Of a stretch of DNA of 15,947 nucleotides, positions 4,529 through 15,912 are shown one piece after another; the first letter of the stretch is position 1, and every line of letters begins with the position of its first letter. The translations under genes were made by a program, and so were the position numbers. The notes below the pieces were generated by a model. It saw only the letters and a program-made list of their open reading frames with translations. It made no database searches and was not told where the DNA came from. Source of the DNA: Methyloglobulus sp. (GTDB lineage Bacteria; Pseudomonadota; Gammaproteobacteria; Methylococcales; Methylomonadaceae); the NCBI GenBank assembly GCA_013140405.1, contig JABFSV010000507.1:1-15947 (forward strand), read 5' to 3'.

Positions 4529-7500
4529 ATGTGTAGATCCCACTTAGCTTTTCTGATTGCGGTCAGCATCAACTTGCTGGTTTTAAATCCCGTTCAAGCA
4601 AATATATTCACTGTCGGTGTTGGTGCAGGCTGTACGCACGCCACTTTAGATGAGGCTCTAAGCACTGCTGCTGCTTCCTTAGGCGCTGATCAGATACGGC
4701 TGTCCCAAACGATTCAGTACCATAACATCGAAGCCCAAATAATTAATCAAAACATCGAAATAAAGGGTGGATACGAAACCTGTCAAAGTTCCGATGCAAT
4801 TGGGAGTGTTAGCTTGGAAGGCGATGGTGGCACTCCCAAAAGCGTATTGCAGATTCGTGGCGGTGGTATTGTTCGATTAACACAATTAACTATTGCAAAA
4901 GGCGATGGGAATGACAACTCCGATGGCGGTGGTATTGATTATAAAGGCAGTGGGGCATTGATCCTGGATTCCGTCATTCTCGACCACAATCACGCGGGTA
5001 ATGGTGGGGGAATATACTTTAGAGGAGATGGCGCGGGTGCCAAGCTGACGCTGCTGGATAATAATTACATCCAATACAACAGCGCCGCTCGCAGTGGCGG
5101 CGGCATTTACTTAAACGGTAGAGCTATGTTGAACATGGCCGGCAGAAATAGCGTCGTGACCCATAACACGGCTTATGGTGTAACTCCTATCCCTAATCAA
5201 CCCCTTATCGAGGGTTATGGGGGAGGCCTCTTTGTTCAAGCGCCGGCCAATGCAGAAATTGGCTCTGGCGCAGATAGCAATGGCAGCGTGTTCTTTCAGA
5301 ATGAAGCCAGAATGGGTGGGGGTATTGCTGTGTTAGGTAATAGCCTCGGTCATGCAAACTTGGTGCGCTTGTTTTCTGGATATGTCAATTCGCCCATGCG
5401 GGTGAGCGGTAATAAAGCCAATGAAAAAGGCGGCGCGATTTACGTTTCAGCCAAAGCGGTCAATTCATATTTTTCGCGTCCTGGCGTATGTTTGCTCGAT
5501 ACCTCTTTGGAAGGCAATTCAGCCCCGAAGGGCGCGGCTGTTTTTGCGGAAAAAGCAACCAATGCCAGCGGTTCGGAAAGCCCCTATTTTTCAATCAACG
5601 CCTGTCCAAGACCAAATAATGCGCCAACTTGTCCAACAGGCAGTAATTGCAGCCATATTAGCGGCAATGTCGAACCGGTCATCCCTGGTAAACCAAATAC
5701 TGGGTCTATTATCGAATTAGATATGGTTGATAAAACACATAGCCAGGCCAATCGGCTTAACAGTTTTGCAGCACATGGCAATGCCGCTGGCTCGCTTATC
5801 AAGCTAAACGGAGGGGAGCTATCCTCAACGCGTATCCAAAATTGTTTGGTTTGGGGGAATACAATCAGCCAGTTCATAGTAGACGCACCCGAAGCAGCGA
5901 CAATAATCAACCAATGTACAATAGCCGCCAATACGATAAATACTATTTCACAATATATATTCAGGTTGCATCAACCAAGCGGCTCCCCGCAAAGGTTGTC
6001 CAAGGTGATCAATTCAATCATCGCTCAACCCAGAAAACAAGCGGTAACCTTAACTGGCGACTTGCCTTTATTCGAAGCAGCGCATGTGTTTAGCAATGCC
6101 CCTTTTGTTAATGGCATTATCCAACGTTATCTCACCAATCAAGATCCTGGGTTTGTAAATCCGAGCGCATTCGATTTCCGTTTGAAACCTGACTCTGCTG
6201 CTATCGACTACGCACCCTTGTACGGAGATGGTTTGGCGACCGACGTAACGGGCAATAAACGAACTGTCGACCTGCCTAAAACTAATCTTAGTGGACTTCG
6301 TGATGTTGGGGCTTACGAAGTGCAAATACCGATACAATCCATTCCAAAAGATTTGCCGGTATACATTAATGGCAGCACCACGGAATGGAAGGAATTGTTA
6401 AAACAAACGCTTGCAGAAGGGGGGCGTACAGTTGTGCTTGCTCCCAATGTCGATATGGATTTGAGCGGGGAAGAAGGCCTTTATATCGGCCCCAACACGA
6501 CACTGACCAGCAATAACGCCCGTACTCCGAATAATCCTGGGCCACGTTTGTTTACGACAACGCGCCCCAAGCCGTTATTCCTTATTCGCTGCAACGGTGT
6601 AAATATTTTCGGCGACAATGTTACGGTTGAAGGTTTTCGCCTCATCGGGCCGCATTTTAATTCGGAATCCGGTAGCTCAAATGAAGAGCGCGGCATTATG
6701 GTCGAGTCTTGTAGAGGCGTTAAGGTTCGGAATATGGAAGTCGCCGGATGGAGCGGTCAGGCAATCTATGTTTCGGACTCTGTAAACCGGATTACTGACG
6801 ACAATGCTGTGCAGGTTAGCAATAGTTTCATTCATCATAATCAGCATGATGGTGGTGAAGGTTATGGTGTCGAGTCTGCCCATGGCGCAAGGGTAATTAT
6901 CGAAAAGAATGCTTTCGACTTTAACCGACATGCCATCATGGCAAGTGGTTTGAATGGCCCTCTGGATGAGGCTAATCCAAACTCACCTTTAAACGGTACA
7001 GGTTATATAGCACGTCATAACTTGGTGCTTAGAGGTGGCGGTTACCATGGTAGTTATGGCCCCTATACGCATTACACGCAACAGTTTGATGTGCATGGTA
7101 CGACCAAATGTGTCAGTTTCGATCCATTTGATTGGTTTTCCGATAGTCTATGCGGTCAAGCAGGTGACACCTTTGAGATAGCAAACAATGCCTTTCAGTA
7201 TACGGCCGGTTATGCCATCAAATTCCGAGGCAATCCAACTAACTATGCCTTAGTAGCAAATAATATCTTTGCCCACGGCAGCAGTAGCGATGCAATCACT
7301 CAAAACGGCAATGCTGGGCCAGGCGACAATATCACAAATCCTATTCAGCTATCAGGAAACCAATATAATTTTCAGTCTTATGGAAAATATGGTGTTTGCG
7401 ACTTTGACGGTGATGATATTGACGATCTATTTTTAGCCACAGGTGTAAATTGGTGGTATTCAAGCAGTGGCAAAGCGCAATGGACATTCCTTAAAGATGC

Positions 7501-8284
7501 AACAGAACGGTTGCCGCAAGTAGGGTTGGGTGATTTTGATGGCGATGGCAAATGCGATGTTGTAGCGGGCGGTACACCTAATCCGCTGCAAATTGCCAGT
7601 GGCGGCACTGGCGAATGGAAAGTGTTAACGGATATGTCTGGCGTACCACTGGTGGATCCTTTCAATCAGTTGCGATTTGGCGATTTTAATGGAGATGGGC
7701 GTACCGATATCTTCTTCCGTGGAAACGATGGGCAATGGCAAATTATTTCGCCCGGCTACGAAGGTGTGCTGGGAGTCTATGATTGGACACCTATCCAAAG
7801 TTCAGGCTTTCCGCTTAGCGATCTTCGCTTCGGCGATTTCAATAACGACCAAATTACCGATGTTATCGCCATTCAAGGCGGGCATTGGTCAGTATCTTGG
7901 GGCGGCAAATCGACATGGGTTCAGCTTAACGGCAGCCTTTCGGATAGTTTGAAACCGGTATTAATCGGCGATATAGATCATAACGGATTCGACGATATTA
8001 TACGTTACCGTGTTACTGCATCGCCGCCCCAAATCGGCGATCCACCTGGCTTACTATACCTGAATTATATATTGGAGGTTTCTTGGGATGGCGTAAGTGG
8101 CTGGTCTAATCTTCAATTCATACGTCTGCAATCAGGCTTTGCTCCAGTGGTCACACCTCGCTTGGTAGGGCGTTTCCGAAAGGATAAAGGCATGGATTTG
8201 TTGGGATTGGCCAATAACCGTAGCGGTAAAATATTCGATGTGATAAGTAAACAATATACCGATCACAGTCTTTATGCTTACTGA
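4529..8284 (+). CDS. Large secreted protein: two right-handed beta-helix regions plus FG-GAP/VCBS-like repeats
   Basis: 1251 residues with a Sec signal peptide (about 1-24, ending VQA), so exported. Region 1 (about 60-600) is a parallel beta-helix with repeated GG[GA][IL] turns at 133-136, 159-162, 190-193, 231-234, 263-266 and 301-304, like chlamydial Pmp-type repeats. It closes with the 'choice-of-anchor Q' type ending: DPGFVNP at 539 and RDVGAYE ending at 597. Region 2 (about 610-945) is a second, pectate-lyase-like helix with Asn-rich turns (NVTVEGF, FIHHNQHDGGEG). Region 3 holds five calcium-loop repeats of the form DFDGDGxxD beginning near 958, 1002, 1052, 1103 and 1148, as in FG-GAP/VCBS proteins. 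No lyase active site, autotransporter barrel, LPXTG or other obvious anchor was seen. GAGGAGA at 4516-4522 supports the ATG. Both neighbours are transcribed separately. Likely a surface or secreted adhesin, matrix or polysaccharide-binding protein; the ligand is unknown. Confidence 0.85.
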   Translation: MCRSHLAFLIAVSINLLVLNPVQANIFTVGVGAGCTHATLDEALSTAAASLGADQIRLSQTIQYHNIEAQIINQNIEIKGGYETCQSSDAIGSVSLEGDGGTPKSVLQIRGGGIVRLTQLTIAKGDGNDNSDGGGIDYKGSGALILDSVILDHNHAGNGGGIYFRGDGAGAKLTLLDNNYIQYNSAARSGGGIYLNGRAMLNMAGRNSVVTHNTAYGVTPIPNQPLIEGYGGGLFVQAPANAEIGSGADSNGSVFFQNEARMGGGIAVLGNSLGHANLVRLFSGYVNSPMRVSGNKANEKGGAIYVSAKAVNSYFSRPGVCLLDTSLEGNSAPKGAAVFAEKATNASGSESPYFSINACPRPNNAPTCPTGSNCSHISGNVEPVIPGKPNTGSIIELDMVDKTHSQANRLNSFAAHGNAAGSLIKLNGGELSSTRIQNCLVWGNTISQFIVDAPEAATIINQCTIAANTINTISQYIFRLHQPSGSPQRLSKVINSIIAQPRKQAVTLTGDLPLFEAAHVFSNAPFVNGIIQRYLTNQDPGFVNPSAFDFRLKPDSAAIDYAPLYGDGLATDVTGNKRTVDLPKTNLSGLRDVGAYEVQIPIQSIPKDLPVYINGSTTEWKELLKQTLAEGGRTVVLAPNVDMDLSGEEGLYIGPNTTLTSNNARTPNNPGPRLFTTTRPKPLFLIRCNGVNIFGDNVTVEGFRLIGPHFNSESGSSNEERGIMVESCRGVKVRNMEVAGWSGQAIYVSDSVNRITDDNAVQVSNSFIHHNQHDGGEGYGVESAHGARVIIEKNAFDFNRHAIMASGLNGPLDEANPNSPLNGTGYIARHNLVLRGGGYHGSYGPYTHYTQQFDVHGTTKCVSFDPFDWFSDSLCGQAGDTFEIANNAFQYTAGYAIKFRGNPTNYALVANNIFAHGSSSDAITQNGNAGPGDNITNPIQLSGNQYNFQSYGKYGVCDFDGDDIDDLFLATGVNWWYSSSGKAQWTFLKDATERLPQVGLGDFDGDGKCDVVAGGTPNPLQIASGGTGEWKVLTDMSGVPLVDPFNQLRFGDFNGDGRTDIFFRGNDGQWQIISPGYEGVLGVYDWTPIQSSGFPLSDLRFGDFNNDQITDVIAIQGGHWSVSWGGKSTWVQLNGSLSDSLKPVLIGDIDHNGFDDIIRYRVTASPPQIGDPPGLLYLNYILEVSWDGVSGWSNLQFIRLQSGFAPVVTPRLVGRFRKDKGMDLLGLANNRSGKIFDVISKQYTDHSLYAY

Positions 8285-8580: not shown

Positions 8581-8609
8581 TTACCAGTTTGATATTGATT
8601 CGATATAAT
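8581..8609 (+). promoter_or_regulatory. Candidate sigma70-type promoter of haoAB
   Basis: TTACCA (8581-8586), 17-bp spacer, perfect TATAAT (8604-8609). This would give a leader of about 28 nt that includes the strong ribosome binding site GAGGGGA (8631-8637). A small dyad GATTC/GAATC (8597-8601, 8610-8614) brackets the -10 box and could be an operator half-site pair. Pattern only. Confidence 0.52.
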
Positions 8610-8643
8610 GAATCTGCTTGATTAATTCTCGAGGGGAGACGTT

Positions 8644-10269
8644 ATGAAAACCACGTTGCTTTATTTGTTGGCTACGCTACTGTTCTGTCTGAATTGGCAA
8701 ACTGCCTGGGCAGAAAAAACCAATTTCGAACAGGTCAAAAAAAATTATTACGACACCCATCCCGGTAAAGGTAGCCATGGTGAGTACTGGCAACCGATCC
8801 CAATTCAAAAATACTGGAATCCCAAGGATTTTTATACGCCCCCGAAAACAATTCAAGGTGAATTCAGCCAGGAAAACTGCGTTGGCTGTCACGAGGCTAC
8901 CACGCCTGGGGCTTACCACGCCTGGAAAAAAAGTGTCCACAGCAATCTGGCTACAATCCGCAACATTCCCGATACCGACGTACGTGCTTATAAAAAGGCA
9001 AAATTGACAGAAGTTGAAAGCAATCTGCACGAACTCGGTTTGCTGGAAAAAGATCAGCCGCTTTCTCAAGTCGGCTGCATCGACTGCCACGGTGGTTTAG
9101 GCAAAAAGACTATCGATCATGCTAAAGACTTGATAATGCCAGACCGCGCTGCTTGCGGAACGTGCCATCAAGATGAATTTGCCGAGGCGGAGTCCGAGAA
9201 GGAGCAAACGTGGCCTCAAAAGCAATGGGATAAAGGCCACCCATCACATGCGGTTGACTGGGCAGCCAATGTTGAAAATGCGGTTTGGGCGGCGATGCCT
9301 GAACGTGAAGTCGCACAAGGCTGCGATTCTTGCCATTATCAACAAAATAAATGCGATGGCTGCCATACCCGCCATACTTTCTCGGTAGCAGAAGCACGCC
9401 AGCCAGAAGCCTGTTCTACCTGCCACAATGGCGCAGACCATAACGAGTTTGAAAACTTCATGCTGTCCAAGCACGGCACACAGTTCTTGACCATGGGTAA
9501 AAGCCAATGGAACTTTGAAGCCCCCCTGAAGGATGCCATCACCAAAGGAGGTTACACTGCGCCGACTTGCCAGCTCTGCCATTTCGAATTTCACGGGGAG
9601 TATTCCCATAATCTGGTGCGTAAAGTCCGTTGGGCATTCAATCCAACGCCAGGCATTGCCGACAACCTGAATCATCCTTGGTTTGAAGATCGCAAGAAAG
9701 CCTGGGTACAGACTTGTACCTTGTGCCATTCCGAAAGTTTTGCCAAGGCTTATTTGGACGCCGCCGATAAAGGCACCATTCAAGGCCTAAAAGTGGAGCA
9801 GGAAGCAAAAAGTGTTATCAAAGCTCTCTATAAAGACGGTTTACTCACAGGACAAAATACTAATCGTCCCGCACCACCTGCGCCTGAAAAAGATGATGCG
9901 GGCGGCTTTTTCCAATTGTTTTGGGCGAAAGGGAATAATCCCAGCCGCGTCGAACGGATTTATGCCGATATGTGGGAGCATGACTTGATCAAGCATTACA
10001 AAGGCATTTTCCATGCGAACCCAGGCGGCTATACCTATACCGAAGGTTGGTCTGCTCTCATGCGCGATTATGCCGAGATTATGGATGAAGACACCAAGTT
10101 GCGCGAGGCAGCAAGAAATAAGTCCGGCACAGACGCTAAAGTGGTTTCCACTACTGGCGGCAGCAGTGACAAGACCGATTACGGTACATTATTGGCTGGC
10201 TTTATCTTGGTCATACTTGGGCTTTTTGTCGGCTACCTTGTCCTCAAACCTAAACAAGAGGATCAATAG
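8644..10269 (+). CDS. haoA: Octaheme hydroxylamine oxidoreductase family protein (HaoA), membrane-anchored
   Basis: 541 residues. A signal peptide ends at about AWA (21-23). Eight CXXCH heme sites follow: C79, C145, C171, C227, C237, C257, C309 and C358 (first Cys of each), the complement of HAO. The fourth (CDSCH, 227-231) corresponds by order to the catalytic P460 heme. The block HANPGGYTYTEGW (457-469) has the tyrosines (Y463/Y465) where HAO cross-links Tyr to that heme, which suggests the oxidative type rather than a reductive Tyr-less homologue. A single hydrophobic helix (about 514-534) followed by a short Lys-rich tail would tether the enzyme to the inner membrane, facing the periplasm. 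Known role of the family: four-electron (or three-electron, to NO) oxidation of hydroxylamine; in methanotrophs this removes hydroxylamine made by methane monooxygenase from ammonia. GAGGGGA precedes ATG at 6-nt spacing. haoB follows immediately. Confidence 0.92.
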   Translation: MKTTLLYLLATLLFCLNWQTAWAEKTNFEQVKKNYYDTHPGKGSHGEYWQPIPIQKYWNPKDFYTPPKTIQGEFSQENCVGCHEATTPGAYHAWKKSVHSNLATIRNIPDTDVRAYKKAKLTEVESNLHELGLLEKDQPLSQVGCIDCHGGLGKKTIDHAKDLIMPDRAACGTCHQDEFAEAESEKEQTWPQKQWDKGHPSHAVDWAANVENAVWAAMPEREVAQGCDSCHYQQNKCDGCHTRHTFSVAEARQPEACSTCHNGADHNEFENFMLSKHGTQFLTMGKSQWNFEAPLKDAITKGGYTAPTCQLCHFEFHGEYSHNLVRKVRWAFNPTPGIADNLNHPWFEDRKKAWVQTCTLCHSESFAKAYLDAADKGTIQGLKVEQEAKSVIKALYKDGLLTGQNTNRPAPPAPEKDDAGGFFQLFWAKGNNPSRVERIYADMWEHDLIKHYKGIFHANPGGYTYTEGWSALMRDYAEIMDEDTKLREAARNKSGTDAKVVSTTGGSSDKTDYGTLLAGFILVILGLFVGYLVLKPKQEDQ

Positions 10270-10273
10270 TCTT

Positions 10274-11281
10274 GTGGCTTGGGTATTGAAAAAAGGTGCG
10301 TTACTATTGATTTGCGGAGCGCTGCTGTTTACTGGCAGCGCGATGTTGATTCAACAAGCCAGGGTTGCTTTTTTTGATGGCGGTGAATCCGAGCAAACAA
10401 GGCCAGCACCGCTTAATGTTACTCTTCTCCATGGGCAAACATCTGATCTACAGGGCGCTTTTCCAGTAGATTCTGTTGATAACTATACTATTGAACGGGG
10501 TGGCAAAGATGCTTTCAGTCTTTTGCTGGCGCATTATAAAGATGACCAGAATCAACAACGCCGTGCCGTGCTGTTCCCTAAAGGTAAACAAGAGGCAAGG
10601 GCGTTGCCAAGCCCTACCGGATTACGACAAGCCATATGGCAAGATGCGGCTAAAGCCATCAGCGAAAACACGCCGAAAGATGCACTGATATTGAGCTGGT
10701 GGGATGATGGGCAGAGAATCCACTTTTTGGGCGGACGGGATGCCTGGGTTAGCAAGCCATCATCGCAAACTTTCATCAGCCCAATTTGGAAGCAATTGCA
10801 GGGAAATTTGTTATTGGCTTCCGATTCCGAACGCGGACAACTATCAAGCATGGCACGTTGGTTGACGATGGATAGCGAGAAGGCTTTAGCAGAAATGCGC
10901 CAGATGTTTGGGTCATCACGACCAATTTATTTGCTCGTCACCAATGACTTGTTAATGCGCCTGGGTGAAATGGTGGACTATGGTGGCACATCGTTAGCGT
11001 TCAGTTCAAAAGCTGTCCCGGCGCATGACAACCTGCATGGCGACATAGCCCAGATCAAGCAGTGGGCTTATGAAGAAGGCAGCGGCAACTATCTGGTGCA
11101 AAAAGAGGGGCTGAATTATCATGTTTGGACGACCCCTAAAGGCTCAGTAACAGAAAACAAATCCCTGCTTGTGCGTCTGCTGCCTTTTGTTGATTCCCTC
11201 AAAAAACTTCCAGAAGGTGTCCATTTGGTCTACCAAAGCCATTGGGGTGGTCATTTGTCGGTATATAGGCTTGATTTGTAG
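10274..11281 (+). CDS. haoB: HaoB, membrane-anchored protein of the haoAB operon
   Basis: 335 residues if started at GTG 10274-10276, 4 bp after the haoA stop. AGAGGA (10257-10262), inside the haoA end, serves as ribosome binding site about 11 nt upstream, so translation is likely coupled to haoA. The frame is open further upstream inside haoA, but that part is only antiframe coding and lacks a good start. An N-terminal hydrophobic helix (about residues 8-26) is followed by a soluble, probably periplasmic domain without Cys-heme motifs or other recognised catalytic signatures. Its identity rests mainly on position directly after haoA, its size and the N-terminal anchor, which match HaoB/Orf2 of methanotrophs and ammonia oxidisers. 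The biochemical role of HaoB is not established. No terminator is visible in the 53 bp before the convergent CBS gene. Confidence 0.8.
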   Translation: MAWVLKKGALLLICGALLFTGSAMLIQQARVAFFDGGESEQTRPAPLNVTLLHGQTSDLQGAFPVDSVDNYTIERGGKDAFSLLLAHYKDDQNQQRRAVLFPKGKQEARALPSPTGLRQAIWQDAAKAISENTPKDALILSWWDDGQRIHFLGGRDAWVSKPSSQTFISPIWKQLQGNLLLASDSERGQLSSMARWLTMDSEKALAEMRQMFGSSRPIYLLVTNDLLMRLGEMVDYGGTSLAFSSKAVPAHDNLHGDIAQIKQWAYEEGSGNYLVQKEGLNYHVWTTPKGSVTENKSLLVRLLPFVDSLKKLPEGVHLVYQSHWGGHLSVYRLDL

Positions 11282-11334
11282 TTTCTGAAAATAAATGAAG
11301 GGGCTGGTAATGCTTTGTCGGAGCGTATGCTGGA

Positions 11335-11760
11335 TTAGTGCCAAGACAGAAGATGAAATGCCGCAATCAAGTTAGCTTGATACACTATGCCCACCAAGCG
11401 TTTTTCGTTGTTTACTATCGGGATTTGTCTAAAGCCTTCATTTGACAACAGAGGAATGAGGTCGATGACATGCGTGCTTTCAGCCAGCATGGTAACGGGA
11501 GATGACATAATATGTCCGACTGATTCCGGTTTATCAGTTGATATGTCAGGTGTGCGCCGTATGAAAGCTCGGAGTCTTTCCTGAAAGGTTTCACGGGTAT
11601 TCATGTTTATGAATTTAAAAAAATCATGCCAGGTAATAATGCCAATAACACGCCTGGATTTGTCGATAACCGGTAATGCCTTAAGATTTTCACGTTGCAT
11701 TAGCTTCCATGCCTCCTCAACATCAGTTCCGTATTCAACCGTTAACAATAATATCTGCAC
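11335..11760 (-). CDS. CBS-domain pair protein, apparently the detached C-terminal half of an HPP-CBS protein
   Basis: 141 residues from GTG 11758-11760. It contains two CBS domains: the first about 7-53 (TVEYGTDVEEAW, LKALPVIDKSRRVIGIIT) and the second about 80-141 (VGHIMSSPVTM, FRQIPIVNNEKRLVGIVY). CBS pairs bind adenine nucleotides or similar ligands and regulate attached transporters or enzymes. The first CBS begins abruptly at its second strand: the usual lead-in (ADI-M-x-x-x-V-x-TVEYGT) is split, with CADI encoded at the end of the upstream HPP frame and TVEYGT in this frame. The two frames overlap by 26 nt. GAGA about 6 nt before the GTG could allow coupled reinitiation, so a separate protein is possible. 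Otherwise this is the out-of-frame remnant of a formerly fused gene. Confidence 0.75.
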   Translation of the reverse strand: MQILLLTVEYGTDVEEAWKLMQRENLKALPVIDKSRRVIGIITWHDFFKFINMNTRETFQERLRAFIRRTPDISTDKPESVGHIMSSPVTMLAESTHVIDLIPLLSNEGFRQIPIVNNEKRLVGIVYQANLIAAFHLLSWH

Positions 11761-12481
11761 AGCTTATCTCGGTGCTGTGCCGCTTAACGCTTTGCATCTG
11801 GACATCGGCCAGCAATCTACTTAGATCCCCAGTGCTGACATCCATAAATGTATCCATTTTCTGTAGCACCTGTTCCACGTCTTGCTCAGAAATTCCAGGT
11901 TGTTGGGTAAGCTCAACGATAGGGTCGTTATTGCTGTTTTTGTAAGATTTTCGGGGTCTAATTGGGTACTCATGGCGCAACAACCAACGGTTGACGACAA
12001 TAGCCAAAACCAGCATGACCGCTATATTTAAGCTTACTGGCAGCAGTACAAAACCGTAGCCTAATGATACGATTGAATCGCCTGATATGACGGGTGTCAG
12101 CGCGGATGCAGCGCCAGGTGGATGGAGGCAACGCAATAGCAACATGGCAAGGACACTGCCGCCGACGGCAAATGCTGATGCGAAAGCCGTATCGGATACA
12201 ATTTGGGCGCAAACAATTCCGATAGCCGTCGATACCAGTTGTCCCCCGACCAGGGGCCACGGCTGTGCAAGTGGGCTGTTAGGGATAATAAAAACAATGA
12301 CCGCTGATGCCCCCATTGAAGCGATGAGCATTGGATAAGCAGTGGGTAGGGTGAATTGCTGAGATACCCATGCCATTGCCAGTATGACAGTGAAGCACGA
12401 AGCGACAGAAAGAAGTTTTCCCTTGAAACTCAGGTTTACTGGGTCAACGGGTATGGCACGAATAAGCCTGTTAATGTTCAC
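11735..12481 (-). CDS. HPP-family integral membrane protein (frame ends at CBS junction)
   Basis: 248 residues from GTG 12479-12481, the most upstream start in this frame; no strong ribosome binding site. It starts 17 bp after the reductase stop. The HPP-domain membrane region (about 20-165) shows MGASAVIVF (56-64), SPLAQPWPLVGGQ (69-81) and the name-giving LHPPGAASAL (119-128). A cytosolic linker (170-240) ends in ISCADI, where a CBS domain would normally begin, then goes out of frame and stops. Cyanobacterial and chloroplast HPP proteins have been reported to transport nitrite. That activity would fit the haoAB/hemoglobin setting here, but substrate is inference. The residues after CADI (IVNG) look like out-of-frame read-through rather than conserved sequence. 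Membrane domain appears intact. Confidence 0.82.
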   Translation of the reverse strand: MNINRLIRAIPVDPVNLSFKGKLLSVASCFTVILAMAWVSQQFTLPTAYPMLIASMGASAVIVFIIPNSPLAQPWPLVGGQLVSTAIGIVCAQIVSDTAFASAFAVGGSVLAMLLLRCLHPPGAASALTPVISGDSIVSLGYGFVLLPVSLNIAVMLVLAIVVNRWLLRHEYPIRPRKSYKNSNNDPIVELTQQPGISEQDVEQVLQKMDTFMDVSTGDLSRLLADVQMQSVKRHSTEISCADIIVNG

Positions 12482-12498
12482 CGTGTTTAACTGATTGT

Positions 12499-13470
12499 TT
12501 AGTTAGGCGAAATCAGGAATGCATCGGTATAAATGTCTGCTATTGAAGCACCTTTGAGAAAGGATTGTTTTTTCATTTGATTGACCATTTCAGGATGGCC
12601 GCAGAGAAATACCCGCCAGCTATTTAAATCAGCAAGTTGGGAAAACACGCAGTCATTCACTCGGCCAGCCGAAAAACCACCAGGAACTTGGTTGCCAGAT
12701 ACGCAGGGCGTGTAATGAAAGTTTGTATATTGTTCAGTAAGCTGGCGCATTTCGTCAATTCTGTAAAGGTCTTCAACTTCACGGCTACCATGAAAAAGAT
12801 GGATAGGGCCGGAATGCCCGTGTGAGAGTGCATCCGTCAGGATTCCAGCTAACGGTGCCAAACCAGTCCCCGTCCCAACCAGCAATATGCCTTGCTCATG
12901 CCGCTCAGGAATATAGAAACAATGTCCACGCGGTTCCGAGACAGCGATTGAATCGCCAACACTGACTTCATCGTGCAGCCATGTGCTGAATATGCCGTCT
13001 GGCAAGCGGCGGATATGAAATTCCAGCGTATTCGATTTTTGCGGAATATTGGCGATTGAATAACTGCGTGTCAGGCCATCATTTCTTTGCAAATTAACAA
13101 ACTGTCCGGCATTGAATTCAAAGGCATCGTCAAATGCGATGATTAATAGGATAGTATTCCTGTTGAGTAACGTGTTGACGACGACAGTTCCCATCCTATA
13201 AAACTCCGATTGGTCGGGGAGTTTTATGTGCATGTCCTGCTCTGGGTAACACTGGCAGGCCAGAAAATAATTCTGTTTTATCAGGGTGTTTTTTAACCCA
13301 GACTGGGCGGATGACGGCGGTGTTACGTCCGTGCTGCGTAACATGCAGCTATGACAGGTGCCTTTTTTGCAAGCATAGGAAAGATTAATATTTTCCCGCA
13401 ACAACGCATCGAGAACAGTCTCGTCCGGCTGGCAAGCAAAATTATTTTGTTCAATGGTTAAAGTAAACAT
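12499..13470 (-). CDS. Ferredoxin-FAD-NAD(P)H oxidoreductase (electron-transfer reductase)
   Basis: 323 residues from ATG 13468-13470. A GTG nine bases upstream is possible, but AAAAGG is correctly spaced only for the ATG. The N-terminal plant-type [2Fe-2S] domain (1-88) has C34-X4-C39-X2-C42-X29-C72. The FAD domain (about 92-190) has the RSYSIAN flavin motif and SEPRGHCFY. The NAD-binding domain (about 195-323) has LLVGTGTGLAPL and the C-terminal FLCGHPEMV. This order is that of MmoC, benzoate dioxygenase reductase and phenol hydroxylase reductase. No oxygenase is nearby; instead it lies 72 bp after a truncated hemoglobin gene on the same strand. The simplest reading is a dedicated NAD(P)H-dependent reductase for that hemoglobin, together doing what a one-chain flavohemoglobin does. 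Partner assignment is inference. Confidence 0.9.
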   Translation of the reverse strand: MFTLTIEQNNFACQPDETVLDALLRENINLSYACKKGTCHSCMLRSTDVTPPSSAQSGLKNTLIKQNYFLACQCYPEQDMHIKLPDQSEFYRMGTVVVNTLLNRNTILLIIAFDDAFEFNAGQFVNLQRNDGLTRSYSIANIPQKSNTLEFHIRRLPDGIFSTWLHDEVSVGDSIAVSEPRGHCFYIPERHEQGILLVGTGTGLAPLAGILTDALSHGHSGPIHLFHGSREVEDLYRIDEMRQLTEQYTNFHYTPCVSGNQVPGGFSAGRVNDCVFSQLADLNSWRVFLCGHPEMVNQMKKQSFLKGASIADIYTDAFLISPN

Positions 13471-13542
13471 AATGTGCACCTTTTATGCAAGACTCAAGGA
13501 CGACTGGTTGATCGCCCTTGTGACTGACTAAAGCGGTTTTGG

Positions 13543-13911
13543 TTATCTCCCCAAAACATCTTTCCGCGTACTTTCAGCAATTGCCGCAGCCTCTGCAATC
13601 AGGTCTTCCGGCACTTTCAATTCCACGAGAGTGGCGCCCAAGTGTTCCATGACGGCATTAAAATGATCTTCATTCAGTCCTATTTTGACCAGACCAGCAT
13701 GGGCATTCCGCATATCCTGTCCTGTATAGTTGTTGGGGCCGCCGAAAGCCATAGTAAAGAACGCCTTTTGCTTGGCTATTTGCTTGTCCATGTCGGCGTT
13801 GTCAAAAAACCGGTTGATACGGTAATCGTTCAGTACTTTGCGGTAAAAAACATTAACAGCTGCATCCACGGCTGGCTCGCCGCCGATTCTTTCATAGAGT
13901 GTTTCGCTCAT
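13543..13911 (-). CDS. glbN: Group I truncated hemoglobin
   Basis: 122 residues, cytosolic, normal length for TrHbN. Features seen: the early Gly pair (IGG, 9-11), B10 Tyr as Y23 (FYRKVL), E-helix Q44/Q48 in KQIAKQKAFF, the GGPNNYTGQDM turn (57-67) and proximal His H71 (RNAHAGL). A polar Tyr/Gln distal pocket like this is associated with NO dioxygenation in mycobacterial TrHbN. GGAG lies 7 nt before the ATG. It is the first gene of a minus-strand cluster with a ferredoxin-type reductase, an HPP membrane protein and a CBS protein. A divergent Cys-rich regulator starts 210 bp away. Probable role (inference): NO conversion to nitrate, or reduction of nitrogen oxides, near the site of hydroxylamine oxidation. 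Confidence 0.92.
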   Translation of the reverse strand: MSETLYERIGGEPAVDAAVNVFYRKVLNDYRINRFFDNADMDKQIAKQKAFFTMAFGGPNNYTGQDMRNAHAGLVKIGLNEDHFNAVMEHLGATLVELKVPEDLIAEAAAIAESTRKDVLGR

Positions 13912-13997
13912 CAGTTGTCTCCAGATTTGAAGGTAAAATTTCCGTCGCTATTTCAAAAACGCGACCAATAAGTAGCGATTGGTGTGGCTACGAAAAA

Positions 13998-14026
13998 ATA
14001 ATAGCTAATAAATACAATTTATACAA
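13998..14026 (-). promoter_or_regulatory. Candidate promoter of hemoglobin cluster
   Basis: On the minus strand, TTGTAT (plus-strand 14021-14026), 17-bp spacer, TATTAT (13998-14003). Transcription would begin near 13991, giving an 80-nt leader with a TCGCTA/TAGCGA dyad (13945-13950, 13973-13978). The -35 box overlaps one inverted copy of the TTTATTGT motif. Confidence 0.48.
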
Positions 14027-14085
14027 TAAAAATATGTTATAAGTTTTATATTTATTGTTTCATAGGCTATAATTTTCTTTATTGT
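14023..14085. repeat. Three TTTATTGT motifs across divergent promoters (candidate operator)
   Basis: ACAATAAA at 14023-14030 (inverted copy) and TTTATTGT at 14051-14058 and 14078-14085 (direct copies, both followed by T) are spaced 28 and 27 bp apart start to start. The first overlaps the -35 of the hemoglobin promoter. The second lies between the -35 and -10 of the regulator promoter, and the third at its expected transcription start. This layout is what autoregulation by the divergently encoded regulator would look like. AT-rich background reduces certainty; isolated copies were also noticed at 1425-1432 and 4110-4117. Confidence 0.42.
14045..14073 (+). promoter_or_regulatory. Candidate promoter of the winged-helix regulator gene
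   Basis: TTTATA (14045-14050), 17-bp spacer, perfect TATAAT (14068-14073). Predicted start near 14080, leader about 42 nt, with AAGGA at 14111-14115 before the ATG. It is back to back with the hemoglobin promoter. Confidence 0.48.
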
Positions 14086-14121
14086 TATGATAATTAAACA
14101 AATTTTCAAAAAGGAAACTTT

Positions 14122-14757
14122 ATGGCCGATCAAATAGGCTCACGTCAGCGCCAAATTTTAGAACTGCTGCTTGAAAATAAAGAAGGGCTTTGCATTGATG
14201 AAATGGCTAAGGCATTACACATTTCGCGCAATGCGGTTCAGCAACATATTTCCGTGCTTGAACTTGAGGGCTATCTTCAGGCGGGTGAGTTAAATAAAAC
14301 AGCAGGCCGTCCAGTGCGGCGTTATGTGTTGACCGAAGCGGGCATCAACAGTTTTCCAAAGCAATATGCCTGGTTTTCTAAGCTCATGCTGACCGACCTG
14401 AAAAGCGAAATTGGCCCTGAAGCGTTTCAGCGTTACATGTACAAGCTGGGAAATAACTTGTCACAAAGTTACAAATATCGGTTTACGGGAAAGAAGCCGG
14501 CCGAGCGCCGCGAAGAATTATTGAAAATAATGGACGATTTGGGTTTTAAGACTGGTAGCAAGGCTGACCAAAGCGGCATTGAACCACCGACTATTAAAGC
14601 CTATAACTGTATTTTCCATGACTTGGCTCAAAAGCATAATGAGATTTGTCAGTTTGATATAGCCCTTATGTCTGCCTTGCTAGAACAGGATGTCGAGCTT
14701 TCGGAATGTATGGCAAAAGGGAGTGGAGTGTGTTGTTTTAAAATCACCAACAAATAA
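14122..14757 (+). CDS. Winged-helix transcriptional regulator with C-terminal cysteine cluster (SufR-like architecture)
   Basis: 211 residues. The N-terminal winged helix (about 6-75) has the recognition helix in ISRNAVQQHISVLE (34-47) and the wing in GRPVRRYVLTEAG (62-74), as in ArsR/DeoR-type regulators of the COG2345/SufR group. The middle is helical. The C-terminus carries C163, C176, C196, C204 and C205, in contexts NCIFHDLAQ, EICQFD, ECMAKGSG and VCCF, which fits an Fe-S cluster site. Spacing C-X12-C-X19-C-X7-C shares the first interval with SufR but differs afterwards, so it is probably a paralogous sensor rather than the suf-operon regulator; no suf genes are present. AAGGA precedes ATG by 6 nt. 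Divergence from the hemoglobin cluster suggests it controls that cluster and itself, perhaps responding to NO or oxygen (inference). Confidence 0.85.
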   Translation: MADQIGSRQRQILELLLENKEGLCIDEMAKALHISRNAVQQHISVLELEGYLQAGELNKTAGRPVRRYVLTEAGINSFPKQYAWFSKLMLTDLKSEIGPEAFQRYMYKLGNNLSQSYKYRFTGKKPAERREELLKIMDDLGFKTGSKADQSGIEPPTIKAYNCIFHDLAQKHNEICQFDIALMSALLEQDVELSECMAKGSGVCCFKITNK

Positions 14758-15042: not shown

Positions 15043-15909
15043 CTATTTTATCAAGGTTGGGTAAATGGTGTGGTTCAAACGTTCGGGATGGGTGTATACC
15101 ACATGCTGATTGTCACGGACAAAGCCGACTAGGGTAAGTCCAGCTTCATCTGCCAAGCGTATGGCTAATCCAGTCGGTGCCGACATCGCAGCTAGTAGGG
15201 TAATGCCGACACTAGCGGCTTTTTGTACGAGTTCATAGCTGGCGCGGCTGGTAATAACCACAAATCCTGCCGCTGGATTTGTGCCTATACGTAATAACAA
15301 GCCTATGAGTTTATCGAGGGCATTATGTCTACCAACATCTTCCCTGACATATTGCACATCTTGCCCTGGGACTACCCAGGCAGCGGCATGTACGGCTCCG
15401 GTCAATTGGTTAAGCTGTTGATGATGGTTAATTGCCGTCAATGCGGAAAAGAGTTCGGTAGCAGGCAGGTTTAGTTCTCCCTGCACAGGTTTAGGGTGGC
15501 GAATAGCTTGTTGTAAGGTGCTGGCACCGCAAAGGCCGCATCCGGTACGTCCAGTTAGGTTACGGCCTTTATCGGATAAATGGCGAAAACGCGGTTCGGG
15601 AATTTGCAAACGAACCTCGATACCATTAGAACGGTTATAAGTGTGACTGGATAGCAGTTCACGTGGTGTTTCAATGATGCCTTCCGTGATGCTGAACCCT
15701 AATGCAAAATCTTCAAGGTTGGTCGGCGTGGCCAACATGACAACATGGGGTGTACCGTTATAAACCAAGGATACCGGAACTTCTTCGGCAATGTAGTCCT
15801 GCTGGATGGAATGTTGGTTGCCTTGCCAGCGTTCTACCTTCCTCAGTTGGTAGCTGGGCCATCCCAATTCAGGCGTAAGCTCTGGCATGACTACATTAGG
15901 GTTAGCCAT
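15043..15909 (-). CDS. fdhD: Formate dehydrogenase accessory sulfurtransferase FdhD (FdsC)
   Basis: 288 residues from ATG 15907-15909. AAGGA lies 7 nt upstream; the adjoining GTG one codon earlier is less well spaced. Landmarks: EEVPVSLVYNG (42-52), LEDFALGFSITEGII (65-79), the catalytic TGCGLCGAS (123-130, C124 and C127 forming the CXXC loop), AAWVV, EDVGRHNALDKLIG and VITSRASYELVQKAA. FdhD transfers sulfur from a cysteine desulfurase to the bis-MGD molybdenum or tungsten cofactor and is required for active formate dehydrogenase. It sits between the fdsA end (TGA 3 bp before this ATG) and fdsD, an arrangement typical of fds operons. Confidence 0.95.
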   Translation of the reverse strand: MANPNVVMPELTPELGWPSYQLRKVERWQGNQHSIQQDYIAEEVPVSLVYNGTPHVVMLATPTNLEDFALGFSITEGIIETPRELLSSHTYNRSNGIEVRLQIPEPRFRHLSDKGRNLTGRTGCGLCGASTLQQAIRHPKPVQGELNLPATELFSALTAINHHQQLNQLTGAVHAAAWVVPGQDVQYVREDVGRHNALDKLIGLLLRIGTNPAAGFVVITSRASYELVQKAASVGITLLAAMSAPTGLAIRLADEAGLTLVGFVRDNQHVVYTHPERLNHTIYPTLIK

Positions 15910-15912
15910 CAC

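Follow-up and report, generated by a model that had tools for sequence, protein, structure and literature searches.

Whether the hydroxylamine oxidoreductase genes (haoAB) and the truncated hemoglobin cluster that lie side by side in Methyloglobulus sp. (Methylomonadaceae) act together on reactive nitrogen is the question raised by contig JABFSV010000507.1 of assembly GCA_013140405.1. The analysed stretch, here called the window, is this entire contig (C147, 15,947 bp), one of 545 in an assembly of 3.39 Mb. Methanotrophs produce nitric oxide (NO) and nitrous oxide (N2O) during ammonia oxidation or denitrification; to our knowledge, NO sensing and clearance in these bacteria are poorly understood. 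Comparison with relatives suggests that a regulator, a truncated hemoglobin (TrHb) and a ferredoxin-type NAD(P)H reductase (FdR) probably form a dedicated NO-defence unit, run by a SufR/ArnR-like and probably NO-sensing regulator, with haoAB as a lineage-specific neighbour.

A conserved regulator, hemoglobin and reductase unit

The hemoglobin gene (13543..13911, minus strand; PF01152, 69 bits) encodes a group I TrHb of the TrHbN/GlbN type. Its closest solved relatives are cyanoglobins (122 bits), with which Y23, Q44, Q48 and H71 are in register; in helix terms, we take the key residues to include Tyr B10, Gln E11 and His F8. FdR (12499..13479, minus strand) combines Fer2, FAD_binding_6 and NAD_binding_1 domains and is a candidate reductase for the TrHb. 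The regulator gene (14122..14757, plus strand) encodes a SufR-like winged helix-turn-helix (wHTH) protein with an HTH_11/ArsR-like domain and is divergent from the TrHb operon, the other end of which converges with haoB. Pfam and NCBIfam matches and the open reading frames (ORFs) bear out the identities and layout given in an initial annotation of this DNA for the TrHb, the ferredoxin-type reductase, the divergent wHTH regulator and the convergent haoAB.

Occurrence of each part (haoA, regulator, TrHb, FdR and the membrane protein HPP) was assessed with a separate threshold per part in 151 Methylomonadaceae genomes (G-numbers, with G000 the window's own). A separate collection comprised the best 80 of 164 confirmed regulator matches (named loci, L-numbers), which is biased to close kin and offers at least 700 bp of upstream sequence in 78 cases, at least 2.5 kb in 70 and at least 3.5 kb in 61; neighbour genes were first named by eye and then checked with Pfam. 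Across the family sample haoA was found in 29 genomes, the regulator in 104, TrHb in 139, FdR in 122 and HPP in 75. At the named loci a divergent TrHb is adjacent to the regulator in 68/80 and FdR is present in 66/80, both occurring together in 61 of the 70 with at least 2.5 kb upstream, so that the proposal of a TrHb and FdR unit with an iron-sulfur (Fe-S)-type regulator was supported. The 12 loci lacking TrHb include some truncated by contig ends. HPP occurs at 16/80 loci, a count that takes in gene pieces and one broken copy, and at 9 of the 61 with at least 3.5 kb upstream. In a class-wide sample of 274 genomes the regulator (E up to 1e-30) was recovered from four, two of Methylomonadaceae and two outside; in the latter two, neither the TrHb nor the FdR of the window has a counterpart within the 5-13 kb examined. 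Laboratory strains with the unit include Methylotuvimicrobium buryatense 5G (L230) and Methylomonas sp. LW13 (L221). In a genome of the window's genus, FdR is matched in two frames and probably broken (L112, G044:C66, 6573-7591) beside an intact TrHb and regulator.

Genes of NO metabolism recur next to the regulator. NorB lies within 10 kb at 11/80 named loci: norCB follows the regulator on its strand in L173, L174, L175, L177 and L179, follows FdR on the FdR strand in L220, L224, L227 and L230, and NorB stands beyond HPP in L153 and L163. The order in L177 and L179 is regulator, 109-residue ORF, norC, norB, and the NorB of L179 scores 322 bits to the solved cNOR 3o0r. At L185, a contig-end locus, a NarK-family gene above its NCBIfam cut-off comes after the regulator. 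Since norCB is found near the regulator at these 11 loci, NO is suggested as the relevant molecule. In L153 (1038-6819) HPP-CBS is followed on its own strand by an NnrS gene (PF05940, 370 bits), with norCB 2.5 kb beyond; this is the only NnrS within 10 kb of the regulator at the 80 loci.

An operator-like site between hemoglobin and regulator

The 38 distinct TrHb-regulator intergenic regions share a motif with the consensus AACTTATACAATATAAATATGTTATAAGTTA. A scoring matrix built from 32 of these regions, with the window's genus left out, scores 36.5 at 14016..14046 (no strand assigned), in the gap between TrHb and regulator, and below 4 at all positions elsewhere in the window. This operator-like site with partial dyad symmetry is the sole match in the window's genome at up to three mismatches; the exact pattern is narrow, because only 5/31 relatives carry it at that stringency. 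With the matrix, a site scoring at least 15 and within 400 bp of the regulator was recovered at 73/79 named loci with upstream room, including 45/51 outside the training set, and only two further sites of at least 15 occur in 1.22 Mb. One extra site (L192, position 1526, score 25.2, in a metagenome-assembled genome labelled Crenothrix polyspora) has FdR on one side and, on the other, a divergent and distantly related (32%) TrHb. The site is also present where no TrHb is divergent to the regulator, as in L177, L179, L173, L174, L159 and two laccase-linked loci, L134 and L182.

Nature of the regulator and its likely signal

An alignment of 20 homologues shows no variation at four cysteines of the regulator (C163, C176, C196 and C204). 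The spacing of C163, C176 and C204 (x12/x27) is that of C203, C216 and C244 of Mycobacterium tuberculosis SufR, residues that this protein requires (PMC6034842). The pattern is consistent with ligation of an Fe-S cluster, and for SufR, NO is reported to damage the cluster (PMC9045647). Many of the 120 homologues listed are labelled "suf operon transcriptional repressor" by JGI, and our results suggest that this label is misleading. A protein named Methyloglobulus sp. is 97% identical to the window regulator. An identity as SufR proper was considered and is not borne out, given a score below the model's cut-off and no suf neighbours in the window: a Pfam scan of 13 window proteins yields no suf product, a search not extended to the 80 other loci. 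Nor does the adjacent regulator match the Rrf2 family; the rest of the genome was not searched for NsrR.

Several observations weigh against an NO-responsive unit of this kind, as does the co-occurrence with haoA taken up below. The best NCBIfam match of the regulator, SufR TIGR02702, reaches 63.6 bits, far under the cut-off of 178.8, and C196 is a fourth invariant cysteine. An AlphaFold model built from 20 sequences (pLDDT 82, pTM 0.58) finds its best PDB matches in TRAPP Bet3 and in phenol sensors of the MopR type, which are distant, with low TM scores of 0.4-0.5. The site is missing at 6/79 loci (L168, L192, L206, L223, L229 and L232, L229 being of the window's genus), and its dyad symmetry is modest, with 40/1000 column shuffles reaching the same level. 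The same genome also encodes a second regulator copy (54% identical; L134, G000:C187, 5346-8998), transcribed divergently from the gene of a laccase-type multicopper protein with two domains. That copy carries its own site (score 20.2). Behind the laccase-type gene comes one for a beta-propeller protein whose matches, to N2O reductase of the lactonase type and to hydrazine synthase beta, are weak and lie far under the cut-offs.

These points leave room for a regulator that senses oxygen, iron or Fe-S status, zinc or another small ligand, with roles for TrHb and FdR in the handling of O2 or in redox protection. The fourth cysteine and the Bet3/MopR-type fold matches would fit a sensor of zinc or a small ligand, and the paralogue beside the laccase gene likewise speaks for a signal other than NO. 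SufR itself responds to Fe-S status (PMC9045647), and group II/III truncated hemoglobins of other methanotrophs rise at low oxygen and are thought to be O2 carriers (PMC11102522). Against this stand the recurring neighbours, which are NO genes, the lack of suf genes among 13 window proteins examined with Pfam, and the analogue ArnR, described as an NO sensor and not an O2 sensor (PMC12343034). We regard a signal other than NO as unlikely.

A broken HPP-CBS gene

The initial annotation counted four ORFs in the hemoglobin cluster. TrHb and FdR stand as described, and HPP and CBS turn out to be one gene, leaving three. In the window the HPP membrane half (11735..12481, minus strand; PF04982, 150.7 bits) and the CBS-domain half (11335..11760, minus strand; identified by Pfam and junction alignment) overlap out of frame. 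Eight of eight relatives aligned across the junction read through it in one continuous frame and hold 11 bp that are missing from the window at about 11742/11743 (11735..11750, minus strand), so the two ORFs are halves of one gene and their reading as two genes was discarded. The 11-bp gap may be an assembly fault, and the two halves may still be produced as two proteins.

The open frame of HPP spans about 400 residues in most of the matches listed from the family sample, against 255 in the window. Stops, splits or short remnants in G085, G096, G122, G031, G099 and G067 indicate that HPP-CBS seems to have been lost repeatedly among relatives. In L173 and L174 the gene divergent to the regulator is HPP-CBS instead of TrHb, with the site between them and norCB downstream, a layout that gives HPP-CBS some claim to membership of the unit. 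Nitrite has been a subject of work on HPP proteins of cyanobacteria and chloroplasts.

Linkage of haoAB to the unit

The haoA gene (8644..10269, plus strand) encodes an octaheme hydroxylamine oxidoreductase, with 580 bits to the solved HAO 4fas, eight CxxCH motifs and a YTYTEGW stretch aligned in register with 4fas; the tyrosine of its TYTEGW motif is presumably the catalytic one. The haoB gene follows (10274..11281, plus strand; TIGR04392, 238 bits, cut-off 200). A putative promoter of the form TTACCA-17-TATAAT lies 5' of haoA (8581..8609, plus strand; 10/12 positions matching). The promoter and terminator scan was at chance level, with 9 such promoter-like sites in the region against a mean of 11.0 in shuffles, and the element is weak evidence since these sites are no commoner than chance.

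In 4/29 haoA genomes of the family sample the gene adjoins the unit: the window's own, two Crenothrix polyspora records (CP1 and CP2, which correspond to G009 and G059 and are not extra cases) and G108. A fifth linked genome, L153 on a 2-Mb contig, comes from the named collection, in which haoA occurs within 10 kb of the regulator at 3/80 loci. Many of the 25 unlinked genomes are drafts whose view is limited by contig ends, and the absence of linkage is firm for the 10 near-closed ones of at most four contigs (G010, G027, G028, G037, G053, G055, G060, G074, G078 and G090): none is linked, with a distance of roughly 220 kb or more to the nearest regulator listed. A check of neighbourhood co-occurrence had been named beforehand for the claim that haoAB and the hemoglobin cluster belong to one system, and these counts went largely against that claim.

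Arrangements differ among the linked genomes. L153, CP1, CP2 and G108 carry haoAB 0.1-3.4 kb downstream of the regulator, in the same orientation. It follows the regulator directly in CP1 (about 155 bp), is separated from it by one opposite-strand ORF in L153 and by three, one a transposase, in CP2, and in G108 is preceded by an 80-residue regulator remnant between it and the hemoglobin operon. The G108 remnant (L106, G108:C80, 3229-3471) retains the site, with a score of 25.3. In the window haoAB lies at the opposite end of the unit from the regulator and is convergent with it.

Upstream regions of 520 bp from the window's haoA and 16 unlinked haoA genes (shorter in L109, 290 bp, and L148, 385 bp) hold no operator-like site of at least 15; the best score is 8.1 in G111, and shuffled regions give a 95th percentile of 4.0 and a maximum of 13.9. 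Control of haoAB through the same site was ruled out in the window, where none precedes haoA. The four loci in which haoAB comes after the regulator are not among these 17; their sole strong site is the one preceding the regulator, and in G108 it falls about 450 bp before haoA, as just the remnant intervenes.

Trees were computed from 18 haoA rows and 16 FdR rows, the fragmentary G121 being left out. The five linked genomes fall within one nine-row haoA clade (100/100) without forming a group of their own, and a single origin of the linkage may be compatible with this topology. G108 pairs with Crenothrix in the haoA tree (100/99) and is placed in the FdR tree outside the eight-row clade (99/98) containing the other linked genomes; the histories of haoA and FdR are separate in this genome because the two trees place it differently. 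Joint inheritance of haoAB and the unit was considered, and the trees conflict with it for G108. The association of regulator, TrHb and FdR goes beyond chance; that of haoAB with the unit does so only in this small clade.

A P460 gene (PF16694, 119 bits in L153) follows haoB in L153, CP1 and Methyloglobulus morosus (G099). In M. morosus KoM1, haoAB is separate from the unit. The window's genome has a single P460, which stands on a different contig and shares 25% identity with the hao-linked type. In G085, of the same genus and lacking a haoA match, a P460 gene 88% identical to that of L153 directly follows the regulator (L154/L235). For one of two sand-filter Crenothrix bins, cytS is reported as the gene immediately following haoA and haoB, and a term search of that paper's text did not find hemoglobin (PMC5563964). 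In a marine methanotroph incubation, haoA, haoB and cytL ratios increased with time (PMC12636513).

The initial annotation had proposed that the whole region is one reactive-nitrogen system, in which haoAB makes NO or nitrite, TrHb and FdR remove NO, HPP moves nitrite and a single regulator tunes all. Such a system draws support from the 5/9 rows of one haoA clade with haoAB beside the unit, from its position downstream of the regulator in four of these five, and from the HPP-CBS arrangement of L173 and L174. It also draws on genome content: regulator, TrHb and FdR occur together in 25/29 haoA genomes and in 73/122 others (Fisher p=0.009), parts being scored as present in the genome rather than adjacent and the tests being uncorrected for relatedness or genome size. 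Every haoA genome has a TrHb match (29/29), and single parts show no clear excess with haoA (TrHb p=0.12; FdR p=0.29; HPP p=0.22, HPP being lower in haoA genomes). This enrichment fits the plain expectation that NO-making cells keep an NO sink, and 73 genomes have regulator, TrHb and FdR and lack haoA. The proposal is opposed by the 25/29 unlinked haoA genomes, of which the 10 near-closed ones are firm, by the intervening ORFs or regulator remnant in three of the four downstream cases, by the convergent haoAB without a site and the broken HPP-CBS in the window, and by the conflicting trees of G108, all of which make it quite unlikely that haoAB and the TrHb unit are one system. A mis-join in a fragmented assembly, to which the 545 contigs, the extent of the window as one whole 15.9-kb contig and the unusual orientation of its haoAB might point, is very improbable as the origin of the adjacency, given that haoAB adjoins the unit in both Crenothrix records, L153 and G108 as well.

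Comparison with known systems

The nearest known arrangement found is the operon of glbN and a ferredoxin reductase gene (lpg2536) of Legionella pneumophila, which also joins a cyanoglobin-type hemoglobin to a ferredoxin reductase under an NO-related regulator (PMC1274295, PMC3820574); it was predicted to be the sole NsrR target, with a proposed role in NO oxidation (PMC1274295). The difference lies in the regulator class and site: the Legionella operon has an Rrf2-type NsrR, whereas the window has a divergent SufR/ArsR-type wHTH protein, another site and an optional HPP-CBS.

ArnR of Corynebacterium glutamicum, likened here by description and not by sequence, is a wHTH [4Fe-4S] repressor with three conserved cysteines that acts on narKGHJI and on hmp, the gene of an NO-removing globin, and whose DNA binding is abolished by NO (PMC12343034). 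The intervals between its cysteines are 14 and 30 residues, compared with 13 and 28 in the window regulator, and according to the same source it is almost exclusive to Actinobacteria and its target is a flavohemoglobin. SufR of cyanobacteria and mycobacteria shares the wHTH and the C-terminal cysteine ligands at x12/x27 and is the best NCBIfam match; the window regulator departs from it in falling far under the cut-off, in the fourth cysteine and in having NO genes as recurring neighbours.

The window haoAB shares gene order and eight heme motifs with other gammaproteobacterial methanotroph haoAB but lacks the P460 gene that follows haoB in L153, CP1 and G099. In Methyloprofundus, listed without hao, a group I truncated hemoglobin is among the top 10 transcribed genes (PMC8788690). 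A literature search, in which subscription papers were mostly outside coverage, found no described unit of a SufR-like regulator and hemoglobin in methanotrophs.

Neighbouring genes

Immediately upstream of haoA the window holds a 1251-residue ORF with beta-helix and FG-GAP repeats by Pfam (4529-8284), and FdhD is encoded downstream of the regulator (15043-15912). At the window's start, a 440-residue membrane-protein-like ORF without Pfam match is truncated by the window end (3-1322). In G121 (L147, 3939-8085) the gene immediately upstream of haoA is a molybdopterin oxidoreductase in two overlapping frames, joined to flavodoxin-reductase domains.

Proposed working and implications

In the NO-defence unit proposed here, the regulator, probably a dimer, would carry an NO-reactive Fe-S cluster on Cys163, Cys176 and Cys204. 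With its cluster intact it would occupy the site between TrHb and regulator and repress both the hemoglobin operon and its own gene, until damage to the cluster by NO lifts the repression. The group I TrHb, re-reduced by FdR with NAD(P)H, would then convert NO and O2 to nitrate. HPP-CBS would be an optional, often lost extra. The haoAB genes would be a methanotroph hydroxylamine oxidoreductase pair of the ordinary kind, probably driven by a promoter of its own, that adjoins the unit in one clade only; being a source of NO, the pair would therefore gain from the unit without belonging to it.

A broader possibility, which we put forward tentatively and consider doubtful, is that SufR-like NO sensors, mostly of one methanotroph family as sampled, run a local NO-defence hub with a divergent arm and a swappable downstream slot. 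The arm would usually hold globin and reductase and sometimes HPP-CBS; the slot would hold norCB in Methylovulum and its kin, haoAB in Crenothrix, L153 and G108 (with P460 in two cases) and P460 alone in G085. The opposite-strand ORFs in L153 and CP2 and the regulator remnant in G108 weaken this proposal. In CP1, NO would raise hydroxylamine oxidoreductase by read-through, and if the hub exists, hydroxylamine oxidation would be coupled to NO removal in this organism.

FdR is a candidate for the reductase on which a group I truncated hemoglobin depends. With its conserved regulator, defined DNA site and a hemoglobin paired with what may be a reductase of its own, the unit offers a directly testable NO-response circuit in cultured methanotrophs.

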